Of a stretch of DNA of 64,000 nucleotides, positions 39,972 to 46,220 are shown one piece after another (positions within the stretch are counted from its first letter, which is position 1; the number at the start of each line of letters is the position of its first letter). The stretch is from Flavobacterium inviolabile (GTDB lineage: Bacteria; Bacteroidota; Bacteroidia; Flavobacteriales; Flavobacteriaceae), in the NCBI RefSeq assembly GCF_013389455.1, contig NZ_CP058278.1, forward strand, positions 930,001 through 994,000. The letters are read 5' to 3'. Both the position numbers and the translations under genes were made by a program. The notes beneath the pieces were generated by a model. The model was not told the origin of the DNA, searched no databases, and saw only the letters and a list, made by a program, of their open reading frames with translations.

Positions 39972-41117
39972 TTATTTCTCGACAGTATATCCTTTTGCTT
40001 TGGCATAGGCCGTAATGGAACTATTAATGGCATTTCCCAGATCGTCCTGCGATTTTGTTTTTTTATTTTCGGTATCAATATACTCCTGGCGTTTTTTAGC
40101 AAGCTGTGCGATTTCCTGCTGAATGCTCTCGCGTTCCTTTGTTTTTGCCTCAATAAGGGTTTTTAGCTCTGCCTTGCTTTTGTTTTGCAATTCTTTGGGC
40201 AGTTCTTCTTTCCTGATTTTGGCGATGGCATCTTTGTCTTCTTTTACCTTGTCAACCAGATCCCAGCTTTCGTTTTTATAAATGGCTTTCGATTTGCTAA
40301 CGGCACGTTCGGCATAGTTGGCAGCCGATACGCTTTCGGCATTTTTATCCTGTACTTCCTGATTCATCTTTTTTGCCCGTCCGCTGGCACCATAACCAAT
40401 ATAAGTAGCATTGATACGACTGCTGCAATCGGCTATTTTGGCATCATAAGGAGTCAGAATGTACTGCACTGCCAGGTTGGAGTTGATATTGAAATATTTC
40501 CCTTTTCCTGTTTCGGCACCGTTTTTCCATAAGGAGCTGATACCTTCGTCATAATCACCACAGAAAATAGTGTTCACATAAATGTCCTTTTTCAACGCAT
40601 CACTAATGGCTTCCTTATAAGAAATACTGCCCTGATCAAAAGCCTCATTTCCGGCAATATAAATAAGCTTCATGCTGTTGGTGTCGGTCTTCCATTGCAA
40701 TTGTCTGGTCGCGTCCTGAATAACGGCGCCGCAATATTCAGCACCGCCGTTTGTACGTAAGGAAAACAGCTTTTCCGAAATCAGGTCCAGATCTGTCGAG
40801 AGCGGTGTCACCTGGCGGATATAATTAGCGGTCTGGGACAACCCGTTGTTGCCGTATTCGTACAGCGCAATTTCAATATCGGGTGTTTTGCCATTGTATT
40901 TTAAAGTAGTCAGTGTGTTAACGATATTCCAGAGGCGGGATTTAGCTTGGTCGATCAAGCCATCCATGCTATTGGAAGTATCCAGCAAAAGTGCTACCTG
41001 AATTTTGGTGTTTTCTGCTTTATGAATTGCCGCCGTTTGCGGATTAACGGTCGTTGCGGTATGGGCAAACGAAAAAACGGTTGCCAGAAGTGCTGCGGTT
41101 AGGAATGTTGCTTTCAT
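39972..41117 (-). CDS. Exported von Willebrand factor A-domain protein
   Basis: 381 residues. Signal peptide MKATFLTAALLATVFSFAHT. VWA domain at about 37-230 with a complete MIDAS: Asp46-x-Ser48-x-Ser50 in LLLDTSNSMDG, Thr in SLRTNGGAEYCG, and IYIAGNEAFDQG with an Asp. A C-terminal Lys/Glu-rich coiled coil (about 235-360) follows. MIDAS domains bind divalent metals and partner proteins; this one is secreted or periplasmic. It starts 4 nt after the toroid-like gene ends and is followed after 33-39 nt by the DUF4139 gene. Confidence 0.9.
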   Translation of the reverse strand: MKATFLTAALLATVFSFAHTATTVNPQTAAIHKAENTKIQVALLLDTSNSMDGLIDQAKSRLWNIVNTLTTLKYNGKTPDIEIALYEYGNNGLSQTANYIRQVTPLSTDLDLISEKLFSLRTNGGAEYCGAVIQDATRQLQWKTDTNSMKLIYIAGNEAFDQGSISYKEAISDALKKDIYVNTIFCGDYDEGISSLWKNGAETGKGKYFNINSNLAVQYILTPYDAKIADCSSRINATYIGYGASGRAKKMNQEVQDKNAESVSAANYAERAVSKSKAIYKNESWDLVDKVKEDKDAIAKIRKEELPKELQNKSKAELKTLIEAKTKERESIQQEIAQLAKKRQEYIDTENKKTKSQDDLGNAINSSITAYAKAKGYTVEK

Positions 41118-41121
41118 GATA

Positions 41122-42426
41122 TTATTGCTGTAATAATTTAATATCGTTTTCTATTGTCAGGATCAAAAGACAGGTTGCAGTACAGAAAACCGGACTGGTA
41201 ATGCAGTGGTGCCCGTTCCAGCTTCCGTTTTGGTTTTGGATTTTTAGAATTTTCCCGCCCACATTATCATACCAGTTTTTCCAGTCGCTGTCTTTTTTAA
41301 CCAGCATGGATTCCCCGGTTTGTAAAAAGCTCATGAATTCTTCGCCGCCATTGTTGCCAAAACCGTTCATTACCTGGTTGTCCATTGCCTGTACTTTTGC
41401 AGCTTTATAAACCTTAGCTGCTGCGGCATAAGAAAGTGCTTTATCCTTATTAACCCCTATTTTTTCAAGATTCTGGGTGTTCAGTTCCGCCTTTTTGCTG
41501 ATTTTACCTTCGGCTTTGGCCTTTTCAAATAATTCTTCGGCTTCTTTGGCTTCCGAAGCACTGCCTCTCACCGAACTACTCACGGCATATAGCACGATTC
41601 CGGCACCGTCTTCTGTTTTAGCGGTATTGTTTTCGGCATCATAATTACCTTTCTGGTAATTCCGGGCAGCAGTCATTTTATCCGGGTCTACTTTTATATT
41701 CTTGTTTTTGGAAGCCTGCTCCAAAGCAGCATTGGCAAAAGAAGACTGTAAAACACCTGCCCAGCCGGCACCGGAAACTTTTCCGTTTGCATCATATGAT
41801 TTCTCTATTTTGCCAACACAAATCTGGATGGCATTTTCTACCCGTTTGGTCAGCGCTTTATCGGATACTGTAGGAACCAGCTGGTTCAGGAACTGTAAGG
41901 TTAAAACGGCATCAATGTTTGCTCCTAATTTTTGCTGGATCTGAGTGCCGCGAACCGGAGTTATGAATTCTTTATTTTTATTTTCTTCAACCTGATGCAG
42001 TAAATAATTCAAAGCCGCCGTTAGCTGTTGTTTGTACCTTCCTTTCTCAATACTAAAACCCATCCGGTACAGACTCATCGCAGCCATAGCTGTTGTTGCC
42101 GGGTCGGAACTAACGGCATGCGGATTCATTTCGCCCTGGTTGCTGTGGGAACCGGCGCCCCAGCCGCCGTCTTTGTTTTGTGCTTCCGCTAGCCATTTTT
42201 CCCCTTTGTCAAGACTGGCTTTTAGTCCGGAAGCATTTTTGTAAACCGAATACCGGTCTACCGGCTGTTCTCCCATAACCGACATGAAAACGCAGGGTTT
42301 TTCCGGTGTTGCGGTTTTGATGATCGGTGTAATCAATCCCGTATCGGGAGTGTTTTCAACTTTTAAGGCAACTCCCGTTAGCAGAACAGAAGCGGTCAAT
42401 GCTATTACAATGTTTTCAGCTTTCAT
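41122..42426 (-). CDS. Exported alpha/alpha-toroid (squalene cyclase/TED-like) repeat protein
   Basis: 434 residues. An N-terminal hydrophobic segment (MKAENIVIALTASVLLTGVAL) serves as signal or anchor. Repeats of the prenyltransferase/squalene-oxidase type are seen: LDKGEKWLAEAQNKDGGWGAGSH, DPATTAMAAMSLYRMGF and, at the end, KILKIQNQNGSWNGHHCITSPVFCTATCLLILTIE (with ITSPVFCTATC like the substrate-cavity helix). Thus a toroid, not necessarily an enzyme: the DxDD motif of cyclases is not visible. First gene of a three-gene transcript with VWA and DUF4139, headed by the repeat operator at 42491-42518. Confidence 0.8.
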   Translation of the reverse strand: MKAENIVIALTASVLLTGVALKVENTPDTGLITPIIKTATPEKPCVFMSVMGEQPVDRYSVYKNASGLKASLDKGEKWLAEAQNKDGGWGAGSHSNQGEMNPHAVSSDPATTAMAAMSLYRMGFSIEKGRYKQQLTAALNYLLHQVEENKNKEFITPVRGTQIQQKLGANIDAVLTLQFLNQLVPTVSDKALTKRVENAIQICVGKIEKSYDANGKVSGAGWAGVLQSSFANAALEQASKNKNIKVDPDKMTAARNYQKGNYDAENNTAKTEDGAGIVLYAVSSSVRGSASEAKEAEELFEKAKAEGKISKKAELNTQNLEKIGVNKDKALSYAAAAKVYKAAKVQAMDNQVMNGFGNNGGEEFMSFLQTGESMLVKKDSDWKNWYDNVGGKILKIQNQNGSWNGHHCITSPVFCTATCLLILTIENDIKLLQQ

Positions 42427-42451: not shown

Positions 42452-42459
42452 CAAAAGTA
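42452..42459 (-). promoter_or_regulatory. -7 box (TACTTTTG) of the toroid-VWA-DUF4139 transcript
   Basis: TACTTTTG on the minus strand matches TAnnTTTG and lies 25 nt before the ATG at 42426. No TTTG/TTG at the -33 place. 31 nt upstream begins the direct-repeat operator, the same distance as at the SIMPL promoter. Confidence 0.7.
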
Positions 42460-42490: not shown

Positions 42491-42518
42491 GGTGAAACGG
42501 TATTTTAACTTGGTGAAA
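42491..42518 (-). promoter_or_regulatory. LytTR-type direct repeat operator A
   Basis: On the minus strand TTTCACC-N14-TTTCACC, i.e. two direct repeats with a 21-bp period (two helical turns). It is matched in sequence and position by operator B at 43561-43588. Position is about -46 to -73 relative to the inferred start, as for activator sites. The binding protein is inferred to be the LytTR regulator coded at 45465-46220. Confidence 0.72.
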
Positions 42519-42531
42519 GGCCCGTTTGGGA

Positions 42532-43497
42532 TTAATGGGTTTGTTTTGAGGTATTCAGATTCAGGGTTTTCAAATCACCGTTAGGCGTAATCAGTATAAA
42601 CTCTTTGTCTGTTTTTGAAGCCGGTTTCTTTTCCCGGTTAATGGCCATTTTGATTTCATATTGCACCTGAATTACCGGTTCGAGTACTGTAGCATTAATG
42701 ACAAAATCAAATTCCTTGTTGAAAACCGGCTGGTAGAATAGCGTAGTGGATTTACCGGCCTGGTTGATATTGGCGGCTCTCTTTAAGTTAAGGGAAGAAC
42801 TGTTATAGGCTTCATAGGATTTATACATTTCCACGGGTAATGTCACACTGTATCCGTCGGCAATCTTTTTCTCCACATTGCCGAAAGTCTCTCCCAGCAG
42901 CAGCTCATAGTTTTTAACCTTTTCCTGAACCAGCAGCTTTGCCCTGTTCATCATTTCTTTTTTAATGGTTTCCAGAGTGCTGGAAAAATAATCCACTCTA
43001 ACCAGGTCATAAACCTCATGGTTGGACAATATGCTGATAAAATCATTCAGCTGATTCGGATCGGAAAATTTGATATGAATGTTCTTTTTCAGTTCAAAAC
43101 CTGCCGGTATTTCATTGTAGGTTTTCCGGCTAAAGATTTTTTTCTCGACTTCATATTCATAAACGGGAACAAAAGAAATCATGTCTACAAAGGTTTCGAC
43201 ACCTTTTTTAAGCCTGATCTCCGCGAGGGACTGTGCAATCCGTTTGTCGATTAACTCGTTTACCTCCTGAGTGGTTTTGCCCGTTTGGGTGGTGCTGAAA
43301 ATAGCCACATAGGCATCCGCTTTTACATTGGCAAGGCCTTTAACACTCACCATAACATCGGCATTGGAAGGAAAGCTGATGTTGATCGCATTGTCGGTAA
43401 AACGCACCTGGTTCTGATAATTGATATTCCCGGAAACCTGTCCGGCAGCTAATTGGCATAGGATTAGCATGACAAAAAGAGTAAAAGATTTTTTCAT
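42532..43497 (-). CDS. Exported SIMPL/DUF541-like protein
   Basis: 321 residues from the ATG at 43497, giving the signal peptide MKKSFTLFVMLILCQLAAGQ; an upstream ATG at 43524 is less likely. The pattern VMVSVKGLANVKADAYVAIFSTTQTGKTTQEVNELIDKRIAQSL at the start and TLETIKKEMMNRAKLLVQEKVKNYELLLGETFGNV later is that of the SIMPL (DUF541) fold, beta-rich and found in periplasmic and surface proteins, function unknown. It has its own promoter and operator B, and lies head-to-head with the kinase gene. Confidence 0.78.
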   Translation of the reverse strand: MKKSFTLFVMLILCQLAAGQVSGNINYQNQVRFTDNAINISFPSNADVMVSVKGLANVKADAYVAIFSTTQTGKTTQEVNELIDKRIAQSLAEIRLKKGVETFVDMISFVPVYEYEVEKKIFSRKTYNEIPAGFELKKNIHIKFSDPNQLNDFISILSNHEVYDLVRVDYFSSTLETIKKEMMNRAKLLVQEKVKNYELLLGETFGNVEKKIADGYSVTLPVEMYKSYEAYNSSSLNLKRAANINQAGKSTTLFYQPVFNKEFDFVINATVLEPVIQVQYEIKMAINREKKPASKTDKEFILITPNGDLKTLNLNTSKQTH

Positions 43498-43521
43498 GAT
43501 TGCGGTTTTAATTGTACGGGA

Positions 43522-43529
43522 CAAATCTA
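43522..43529 (-). promoter_or_regulatory. -7 box (TAGATTTG) of the SIMPL gene
   Basis: TAGATTTG on the minus strand matches TAnnTTTG and lies 24 nt before the ATG at 43497. No -33 element is seen; the operator begins 31 nt upstream, exactly as at the toroid promoter. Confidence 0.7.
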
Positions 43530-43544
43530 TTGATCGAAAAAACG

Positions 43545-43552
43545 TACTTTTG
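43545..43552 (+). promoter_or_regulatory. Possible -7 box (TACTTTTG) for the kinase gene
   Basis: TACTTTTG on the plus strand between the SIMPL -7 box and operator B, 95 nt before the kinase ATG. No -33 element at the right distance. It could be incidental. Confidence 0.3.
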
Positions 43553-43560
43553 GTAGAAAG

Positions 43561-43588
43561 GGTGAACCGGTCTTTTGACTTGGTGAAA
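43561..43588 (-). promoter_or_regulatory. LytTR-type direct repeat operator B
   Basis: On the minus strand TTTCACC-N14-GTTCACC, again with a 21-bp period. Most bases agree with operator A, including the AAG..AA.A.ACCG spacer bases. It sits between the SIMPL and kinase genes, so it may also govern the kinase-regulator pair. Confidence 0.72.
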
Positions 43589-43647
43589 AGTATAGGAAAG
43601 CAATTTGAAATGAAGTTACTTTACACTCTGAAAATAACTTATTTGTA

Positions 43648-45468
43648 ATGCGTATTTTATCAATTGGTTTCGGACTTCTTTTTTTAGTGTTGCTGTTTCC
43701 GCAAGGAATAACGGCGCAGCAGATTTCTACTGTAAATGCTAAAAAAAGTGCCAATGCCAAAATCAGCAAAGCAGCCGAAGAACTATCCAATTCACTGAAT
43801 GAAAACGATGAGGTAAAAATTGCCGGCAGTTATGAAAAACTGGCGCAGGAATTTATTGATATAGCCGATTATACCAAAGGGGAGGAATACCTCAAAAAAG
43901 CATTGGAAAGCTATACCAGACTTAACCGGAAACCGGATCTGGCAAGAGTGACCCGAAGCCTGGCGCGGGTTCAGGAAAATCAGAGTAAATATAAGGATGC
44001 GATCCAGAACTACCAGATTGCCGGTGAAATCGCCACGGAAAAAAATCAGGAACTGGTTAATCAGAGTGATGCCAAACGACTAAAAAGTGCTGCGAATCCT
44101 GCGGCACAATACAATTATGTTAATGCCAAGATCCAGTTGCTTGAAAAAGAAAGCCGCAAAGAAGAAGTCGCGGATGCGTATGTGCAGAAGGCGGAAATGA
44201 ATTTGCAGCAAAAAGATAAGGCGGAAGCGATTGAAAGTTACAACCAGGCAATTTCCTTTGCGAAAGACAAACCGGAAACGGTAATCAAGTTAAAAAATGA
44301 AATAGCCAAAGTGTACACGGCCGACAACCAGTTTGACGCAGCACTCGGAATCTCGGAAAAACTGCTGAAAGAAGCCCGGTCTAAAAAAGATTTTGATACC
44401 GAAATAGCCCAATTGCAATCGATAGCAACGATCTATTTTAAAAAGAAAGAACCGGAAAAAGCAGTAGCGCAGCTAAAAGCAGCTTATGAACTGGCCACAC
44501 GGCAAGGTAAAACGGATGAGGTTAAAAAAAGCCTTTCCCAACTGCTGGATTACTATAAAAAAACAGGAAAAGACAAAGAAAGCATTCTGCTGTACGAACA
44601 GTTCTTCCGGAATTTTGAAAAACTTATTCATGCCGACAGTTCACTGGCGGATACCAAAAACTTCCAGGTGACAGAAGAAAAAATCCGGCAGCTTGAAAAG
44701 GAAAAAGTTTTAAAGGATGAACTGATCGCAAAGAAAAACACCTTTAACTATTTCCTGATCGGTTCGATTGTACTGCTGTTAGTGCTTTTCGGATTGATCA
44801 TAAAAGCGCTGTATGCTATTAAAACCAAGAATAAGGAAATTGCGCTGCAGTCGCTGCGCCGGGAAATGAACCCGCATTTTATTTTTAACAGCCTGAACAG
44901 TGTGAACCAGTTTATTTCGCAAAACAGGGAGCTGGAAGCTAATAAATACCTGACGTCCTATTCGAACCTGATGCGGAACATGATGGAAAATTCCAATAAG
45001 GACTTTATTGCTTTGGGCAGTGAAGTCGAACAGCTTCGGAAATACCTGGATCTGGAACACATGCGTTTTGAAGATCAGTTTGACTACCAGATCACGGTGG
45101 ATGACAATCTGGATGCCGAAACGATTTTGATCCCGAACATGATCATCCAGCCGCATCTTGAAAATGCAATCTGGCACGGACTGCGCTATAAAGAAGGAAA
45201 GGGATTGCTACAGCTGGGGTTTTACCTGAAAAACGGTACTGTAAGCGTGGTAATTGACGACAACGGTATCGGGTTAACCAAAAGTCAGGAACTCAAAACC
45301 AAAAACCAGAAAGTACACCAGTCCAGAGGGCTGACAAATACCAAAGAGCGGATCAGTTTGCTGAACGAACTGTATAAAAAAGAGATCACGCTATCGCTGC
45401 AGGAAAAACCGGAACCGGAAACCGGAACGATAGTAGTAATTAATTTTCCATTGATTGAAAGAATATGA
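43648..45468 (+). CDS. TPR-containing LytS-type sensor histidine kinase
   Basis: 606 residues. Signal peptide MRILSIGFGLLFLVLLFPQG, about 320 residues of TPR helices on the outer side (EYLKKALESYTRLNRKPDLARVTRSLARVQE, KAEAIESYNQAIS), a coiled-coil neck, a transmembrane helix (about 369-390, FLIGSIVLLLVLFGLIIKALY) and a cytosolic His_kinase (LytS-type) domain with the phospho-acceptor His410 in REMNPHFIFNSLN, and HATPase motifs IQPHLENAIWHGL and VVIDDNGIGL. The sensor thus recognises something in the periplasm. Overlaps the regulator gene by 4 nt. Confidence 0.93.
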   Translation: MRILSIGFGLLFLVLLFPQGITAQQISTVNAKKSANAKISKAAEELSNSLNENDEVKIAGSYEKLAQEFIDIADYTKGEEYLKKALESYTRLNRKPDLARVTRSLARVQENQSKYKDAIQNYQIAGEIATEKNQELVNQSDAKRLKSAANPAAQYNYVNAKIQLLEKESRKEEVADAYVQKAEMNLQQKDKAEAIESYNQAISFAKDKPETVIKLKNEIAKVYTADNQFDAALGISEKLLKEARSKKDFDTEIAQLQSIATIYFKKKEPEKAVAQLKAAYELATRQGKTDEVKKSLSQLLDYYKKTGKDKESILLYEQFFRNFEKLIHADSSLADTKNFQVTEEKIRQLEKEKVLKDELIAKKNTFNYFLIGSIVLLLVLFGLIIKALYAIKTKNKEIALQSLRREMNPHFIFNSLNSVNQFISQNRELEANKYLTSYSNLMRNMMENSNKDFIALGSEVEQLRKYLDLEHMRFEDQFDYQITVDDNLDAETILIPNMIIQPHLENAIWHGLRYKEGKGLLQLGFYLKNGTVSVVIDDNGIGLTKSQELKTKNQKVHQSRGLTNTKERISLLNELYKKEITLSLQEKPEPETGTIVVINFPLIERI

Positions 45469-46220
45469 TGACTTTGCAAAAAATAAAAAGTGTTATCGTT
45501 GAAGACGAGTCGGCGGCAAGGGAAGTGCTTAAAAATTACCTGAGCAAATACTGTCCGCAGATTGAAGTTGTCGGGGAAGCCCAGAATATCAGAGAAGCCG
45601 TTCCGCTGCTTCATGAAATACGGCCGCAATTGGTTTTCCTGGATGTGGAAATGCCCTTCGGAAATGCTTTTGATGTATTGGAAGCCTGTAAAGAACTGCA
45701 GTTTGAAACCATTTTTGTCACTGCTTTCTCCGAGTATTCGTTAAAAGCACTCAATCAGAGTGCGGCGTATTATTTGCTGAAACCCATCAGTATTGAAGAA
45801 CTGATCGTAGCGGTTAACAAAGTACAGCTGCAATTGCTCAATCAGGAGATCTTTAACCGCAACAAGATCATTGTGGAAAACTTCAGGGAACCCAATCCGG
45901 AACGGCAACAGGTTATTCTGCCCACGCTGGAAGGCTTTGAAGTGGCTAAAATGGAAGACATTGTCCGGCTGCGCGGGAACGGTAATTTTACCGATCTGTA
46001 TTTACAGGATGGCAGTAAAAAAATGGTGTGCCGTTTTTTAAAACACTTTTCAGAGATTCTTCCTTTTCCGTTTTTACGGGTACATAAATCCCATATTATC
46101 AATGTGAACTTTGTGAAATCATACCACAAAGGAACAGGCGGCTATGTTACCTTGTTTGACGGTTCGGAAGTGGAAATCTCGCCTACTTACAAAGAGGAAT
46201 TCCTTAAAAACTTCAAATAG
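45465..46220 (+). CDS. LytTR-family response regulator
   Basis: 251 residues. Receiver domain with acidic VEDES, phospho-acceptor Asp60 in LVFLDVEMP, Thr in FVTAF and Lys in YYLLKPIS; then a LytTR DNA-binding domain (VILPTLEGFEVAKMEDIVRLRGNGNFTDLYL, KHFSEILPFPFLRVHKSHIINVNFVKSYHKG). LytTR domains bind two direct repeats about two helical turns apart. The two sites at 42491 and 43561 fit that rule and are its likely targets. It overlaps the kinase gene by 4 nt and ends 3 nt from the convergent next gene. Confidence 0.95.
   Translation: MMTLQKIKSVIVEDESAAREVLKNYLSKYCPQIEVVGEAQNIREAVPLLHEIRPQLVFLDVEMPFGNAFDVLEACKELQFETIFVTAFSEYSLKALNQSAAYYLLKPISIEELIVAVNKVQLQLLNQEIFNRNKIIVENFREPNPERQQVILPTLEGFEVAKMEDIVRLRGNGNFTDLYLQDGSKKMVCRFLKHFSEILPFPFLRVHKSHIINVNFVKSYHKGTGGYVTLFDGSEVEISPTYKEEFLKNFK

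Follow-up and report, generated by a model that had tools for sequence, protein, structure and literature searches.

The window is a stretch of 64,000 nt of the Flavobacterium inviolabile genome. A sensor kinase gene (43648..45468) and a REC-LytTR response regulator gene (45465..46220) lie on its plus strand, and four genes lie on the minus strand opposite them. These encode a SIMPL (PF04402) protein of 321 aa (42532..43497); a toroid-like protein of 434 aa (41122..42426), which had a weak match to the squalene-hopene cyclase C-terminal domain; a VWA-domain protein of 381 aa (39972..41117); and a DUF4140-DUF4139 protein of the MuiA family (TIGR02231; 38316..39938). The N-termini of the SIMPL, VWA and DUF4139 proteins were signal-peptide-like by eye.

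Both domains of the regulator, PF00072 (61.3 bits) and PF04397 (40.7 bits), scored above the Pfam gathering cut-offs, in agreement with the neighbouring LytTR regulator of the preliminary description. The kinase had been described as LytS-type. This held for the catalytic family, His_kinase (PF06580; score 71 bits, cut-off 25.2), but not for the sensor: no LytS-type multi-span membrane sensor was found among the Pfam matches of the kinase at E ≤ 0.001, and its N-terminal half consisted of TPR repeats. From the signal-like start, the TPR repeats and one membrane stretch, all judged by eye, the TPR half probably faces the periplasm. It would then be in the same compartment as the regulated exported proteins.

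Two putative operators were found on the minus strand. Operator A (42491..42518, TTTCACCAAGTTAAAATACCGTTTCACC) is TTTCACC-N14-TTTCACC and lies upstream of the toroid, VWA and DUF4139 genes. Operator B (43561..43588, TTTCACCAAGTCAAAAGACCGGTTCACC) is TTTCACC-N14-GTTCACC and lies upstream of the SIMPL gene, inside the divergent region common to this gene and the kinase gene. They had been reported as identical repeats; the minus-strand positions were correct, but the two elements had the same base at 25 of 28 positions. The 14-nt spacer, treated at first as a free N14, was itself conserved between them. The distance from the 3' end of the operator to a TAnnTTTG box was exactly 31 nt in both cases, as had been claimed. 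The -7 box of operator A is at 42452..42459 (TACTTTTG) and that of operator B at 43522..43529 (TAGATTTG), both on the minus strand. The ATG followed the box after 25 nt for operator A and 24 nt for operator B, which matched the 24–25 nt given before. TTTG was absent at 17–23 nt upstream of either box.

TTTCACC-N14-TTTCACC with at most one mismatch was matched twice in the window, with 0.03 matches expected from 100 shuffles. In the whole 3.91-Mb genome, the pattern of the preliminary description matched at two places only, operators A and B, and the longer 28-bp pattern with at most three mismatches again found only these two. Chance repeats were thus ruled out, and the motif was not frequent at random places. 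A looser pattern gave one additional site in the genome, 320 kb off.

The anatomy of the site was investigated across related loci. A regulator-based scan of genome contigs gave a longer list, from which the best 80 named loci were taken; these were mostly from Flavobacterium, and eight were labelled Dysgonomonas, Bacteroides, Prevotella or Dysgonomonadaceae. With G028, G166, G133, G302 and the window added, and L116–L118 removed as duplicates, the set comprised 85 loci. A total of 115 sites was obtained, with one site in 55 loci and two in 30. Selection was on the operator alone for 109 sites (at most two mismatches to the consensus from such loci). The other six, with three or four mismatches, were retained only for their box, and L100 and L122 rest solely on these.

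All 109 operator-only sites had a box TAnnTT[T/A][G/A], at 31 nt in 100 sites and at 32 nt in nine, so the fixed place of LytTR-type operators just upstream of a core promoter was found throughout. The other 73 offsets tested gave a mean of 0.11 box matches. The box was exactly TAnnTTTG in 98 of the 109 sites and TAnnTTTA in the rest. Within this set, the 32-nt spacing was confined to the eight Dysgonomonas-type loci and one G028 site; a feature of Flavobacterium only was ruled out by these Dysgonomonas-type sites. There were 102 distinct operator-to-box stretches among the 109 sites, showing that the site is not one copied sequence.

Weighted column information was drawn from the 106 sites of 31-nt spacing, which correspond to an effective number of about 22. 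The repeat unit had been given as a 7-bp direct repeat. The direct repeats were confirmed, but the constrained unit was longer: TTTCACCnnnT occurred twice, 21 bp apart, with the conserved middle block AAGTCAAA in between. Both the repeat length of about 9–11 nt and the period near 21 bp agreed with a LytTR-type operator. The box was set at -12 to -5, after the numbering for F. psychrophilum in the accessible part of PMC9723704, which placed the two units at about -71 to -61 and -50 to -40. The base at position 4 after repeat 2 was T in 115 of 115 sites. Conservation of the middle block was nearly that of the repeats (columns -64 to -57), and a model of two repeats with a free spacer was ruled out.

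The sigma-A promoter of Bacteroidota usually has a -33 TTTG. No TTTG was found at N17–23 upstream of the box in any of the 115 sites, window included, and an A-run occupied the region instead; the missing -33 element noticed at first in the window was therefore common to all of them. TTTG at N15, N16, N24 or N25 occurred 10 times among the 115 sites. The -7 box was of the TAnnTTTG type given for Bacteroidota sigma-A promoters in the accessible part of PMC9723704, but the -33 TTTG was absent and the operator occupied the region upstream. The rigid spacing to the -7 box, together with the absence of a -33 element, fits an activator.

The target of each site was taken as the first open frame of at least 80 residues after the box with an ATG within 400 nt. 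The first frame after the 115 sites encoded VWA in 63 cases, SIMPL in 26, toroid in 12 and DUF4139 in two; the class of other or none held 12, three of which (L072, L079 and L119) resembled SIMPL relatives by eye. In two loci of different gene order, L110 and L113, an operator copy stood before DUF4139 itself. An altered gene order with own operator copies for new transcription units indicates a regulon pattern. The site L042 8104 kept operator and -7 box, yet no frame of at least 80 residues with an ATG within 400 nt followed; the SIMPL gene seems to have been lost there. In F. supellecticarium (L036), the closest named relative, toroid, SIMPL and DUF4139 were matched, and VWA was unmatched at the locus.

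All of the best 80 loci from the longer list had the kinase next to the regulator, and 75 of the 80 had a VWA ortholog inside the fetched DNA. VWA, SIMPL, toroid and DUF4139 were all unmatched in the fetched DNA of L106, L108 and L111, and kinase, regulator and operator were kept. In these loci (L106 8108, L108 8109, L111 8111 and 7698) the operator stood before genes for 67–68-residue proteins, lipoprotein-like by eye. L111 had two such small genes in tandem and two operators. The opposite case was one genome, G499: VWA and DUF4139 orthologs were present, the regulator was not found at E ≤ 1e-75, and there was no operator before VWA. Judged from these comparisons of sequence, the operator is one that follows the regulator rather than any particular target.

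Co-occurrence with the regulator was investigated in two genome samples. At E ≤ 1e-75, a regulator ortholog was found in 45 of 219 Flavobacterium genomes, about a fifth of the sample. The strict pattern was present in 36 of these 45, each time on the same contig and 1.9–2.1 kb from the regulator. The nine strict misses all had a relaxed site (one to four mismatches, with one site exceeding two) and a box at 31 nt, which brought the total to 45 of 45. Among the 174 regulator-less genomes of the genus, the strict pattern matched in 11, compared with about 50 for the reversed control in a hand count, so these matches look like background. Loci from six of the 11 genomes were inspected, and none had the box at either spacing, 31 nt or 32 nt.

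In a phylum sample of 395 genomes, the operator-plus-promoter pattern marked 20 genomes and its control none. A regulator ortholog was found in 17 of the 395; 16 of these 17 were marked, compared with four of the 378 without a regulator match. The 17th, G643, had an N32 site before SIMPL and a weak N31 site before VWA. Of the four, G871 had a kinase that runs off the contig end, and the matches in G359, G809 and G676 look like chance. Fisher tests of site against regulator, which ignore kinship, gave P = 7e-24 and 4e-23. Nearly all sites adjoin the regulator, and common descent of the whole locus therefore explains part of the co-occurrence. The claim that the repeats are the operator of the neighbouring LytTR regulator gains comparative support from the site in 45 of 45 ortholog genomes and its absence in regulator-less G499.

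The regulator of eight loci labelled Dysgonomonas, Bacteroides or Prevotella (L087, L095, L105, L107 and L112–L115) was 79–82% identical to that of the window, whereas the kinase was far less conserved, at 46–52% identity. For Bacteroides sp. 51 (L107), the values were 79% for the regulator and 48% for the kinase. These regulators were nearer to that of the window than the regulator of L119 (G028), of the same order, at 68%. This hints that the module was transferred between Flavobacterium and bacteria of the Dysgonomonas type.

According to the accessible parts of PMC4847170 and PMC6193735, nearly all LytTR regulators bind pairs of 9–11-nt repeats 11–13 nt apart. The streptococcal regulators HdrR and BrsR activate from 9-bp direct repeats with a 12-bp spacer and a 21-bp period, just upstream of the -35 element (PMC6193735, in part). 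The period of 21 bp and the position just upstream of the promoter are the same here. For BrsR, the elements printed in that part of PMC6193735 give a total of 31 bp between repeat 2 and the -10 box, a rough match, as the repeat ends were drawn otherwise. The HdrR and BrsR sites described there precede a -35/-10 promoter on the regulator operon and bacteriocin genes, whereas the present operator has the TTTCACCnnnT unit, lacks a -33 element and marks exported-protein genes opposite the regulator.

In E. coli, YpdA/YpdB activates PyhjX, where GGCATTTCAT is repeated with a 21-bp period and the sites A and then B are bound (PMC4847170, accessible part). The LytS/LytTR-type pair and the 21-bp period are alike; the repeat sequence, the kinase sensor and the single E. 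coli target reported in that part of the paper are different. The motifs of BtsR, of the E. coli pair BtsS/BtsR, are conserved across genera (PMC5552118, accessible part). The BtsR model was the best NCBIfam relative of the present regulator, but its score of 97.3 bits was far under the cut-off of 246, and the kinase here differs from BtsS in its TPR sensor. The accessible parts of PMC11237479, PMC6801697, PMC5395568 and PMC5431176 held nothing bearing on the operator. Judged by titles, abstract openings and selected passages, no description of the operator, its regulon or the fixed geometry on Bacteroidota promoters was found in the open literature searched, with subscription journals mostly outside this scope. 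The kind of element is known, a LytTR operator, and the particular operator and its regulon appear to be new.

The repeat pair is very probably a switch that turns on exported-protein genes via the conserved two-component regulator. The TPR kinase (43648) would phosphorylate the LytTR regulator (45465), the proposed binder of operators A and B. A regulator dimer would then bind the two TTTCACCnnnT half-sites, which lie on the same face of the DNA at a distance of two helical turns; with the box taken as -12 to -5, the bound stretch would span about -71 to -40 relative to the start site. The promoter would be poor alone because of the lacking -33 element, and the bound regulator would recruit RNA polymerase to the -7 box without it. 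SIMPL would be switched on in this way, and the toroid-VWA-DUF4139 transcript would be switched on separately. We infer the identity of the binding protein, the phosphorylation, the dimer and activation rather than repression. As a whole, this activation model is held with considerable confidence.

The kinase side of the divergent region was also compared. In the window, about 60 nt separate operator B from the kinase ATG, and the gap in 84 loci was 33–286 nt, mostly near 60. A CTTTACA element was conserved on this side in 76 of 83 loci (window side 43589-43648, plus strand); it is not a TAnnTTTG box and may be the kinase promoter. A TAnnTTTG kinase promoter beside operator B was considered and rejected: the box was present between operator and kinase in only seven of 84 loci, and kinase autoregulation is for this reason unsupported.

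The short distance from operator B to the kinase ATG and the separate CTTTACA element would suit a LytTR protein that represses, or that activates the minus-strand genes while restraining the divergent kinase gene. This is unlikely, since the site lies upstream of the promoter and not over it, keeps one fixed helical phase and serves a promoter without a -33 element; in addition, second operators such as A precede genes that have no divergent kinase.

Somewhat less probable is binding of the repeats by a different DNA-binding protein whose gene lies elsewhere, with the linked LytTR gene as a bystander. Response regulators besides this one are numerous in the genome (28 matches at E ≤ 0.001), and one of them could be the binder; the middle block AAGTCAAA, nearly as conserved as the repeats, is not needed by a plain two-repeat model. 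Against this, the site was present in every ortholog genome of the genus, and elsewhere it was below the reversed control and lacked the box in the six loci inspected. It was also gone together with the regulator in G499 and stayed with the regulator after loss of VWA. Finally, a similarity due to inheritance of local sequence, for example by promoter duplication, with no dedicated regulator, is highly improbable: the agreement at 25 of 28 bases and the synteny of nearly all sites would suit it, but the same columns are conserved across the 102 distinct stretches, with variation in the flanks and in much of the N31, and the site stands before differing genes.

The activation model would provide a precise operator for the two-component system of 45 of 219 Flavobacterium genomes and of Dysgonomonas-type genomes. 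It would also offer a handle on exported families of little-known function, namely DUF4139/MuiA, SIMPL and the VWA protein. In addition, it would supply a clear example of a Bacteroidota promoter that probably depends on an activator, with an operator of 21-bp phase in place of the -33 element. A broader reading is put forward tentatively, at somewhat below even chances. Kinase, regulator and an operator-promoter cassette of about 67 bp would form a self-contained envelope module of Flavobacterium and Dysgonomonas-type bacteria. The cassette, with its rigid phase of 31 or 32 nt and no -33 element, could be set in front of further exported genes (VWA, SIMPL, MuiA, toroid, small lipoproteins and a second VWA), and the TPR domain would sense the envelope state on which those proteins act. 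If this is true, the TPR domain, which probably lies outside the inner membrane, and the regulated exported proteins would together form a closed feedback loop.

Three strict matches far from the regulator were counted over the 45 genomes that have it, compared with 12 over the 174 that lack it. These rates are similar, so most unlinked matches are chance, and the box decides. The three were the third site of this genome, G166 and G471, with boxes examined in the first two; the G166 match had no box. The third site (1296086-1296113, G000:C1; L153 1587; TTTTACCAAGTGAAAACAATCGTTTACCAAGT) is about 320 kb off. Its 28-bp element is 31 nt from TATCTTAG, which is one base off TAnnTTTG, and 28 nt past TATCTTAG begins a protein of 602 residues with a signal-peptide-like N-terminus and weak BNR-repeat matches. 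A search of the other 149 genomes of the genus set gave no ortholog of this protein. The F. supellecticarium ortholog (60% identical) had a degenerate site 31 nt from TAATTTAG, and the ortholog of a second relative (51%) had no site. The third site can be regarded as a candidate target site.

Among 19 genomes reached via named loci, with L107 left out, 17 had a match. Three of these matches were unlinked: those of L252 and L256 had no box, and that of Dysgonomonas hofstadii had one. In D. hofstadii, this site and the regulator are on different contigs; the exact box TATATTTG follows the site after 32 nt, and downstream begins a second exported VWA protein, with 31% identity to that of the window. 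The site is a convincing one and offers the strongest hint that the regulator acts in trans.
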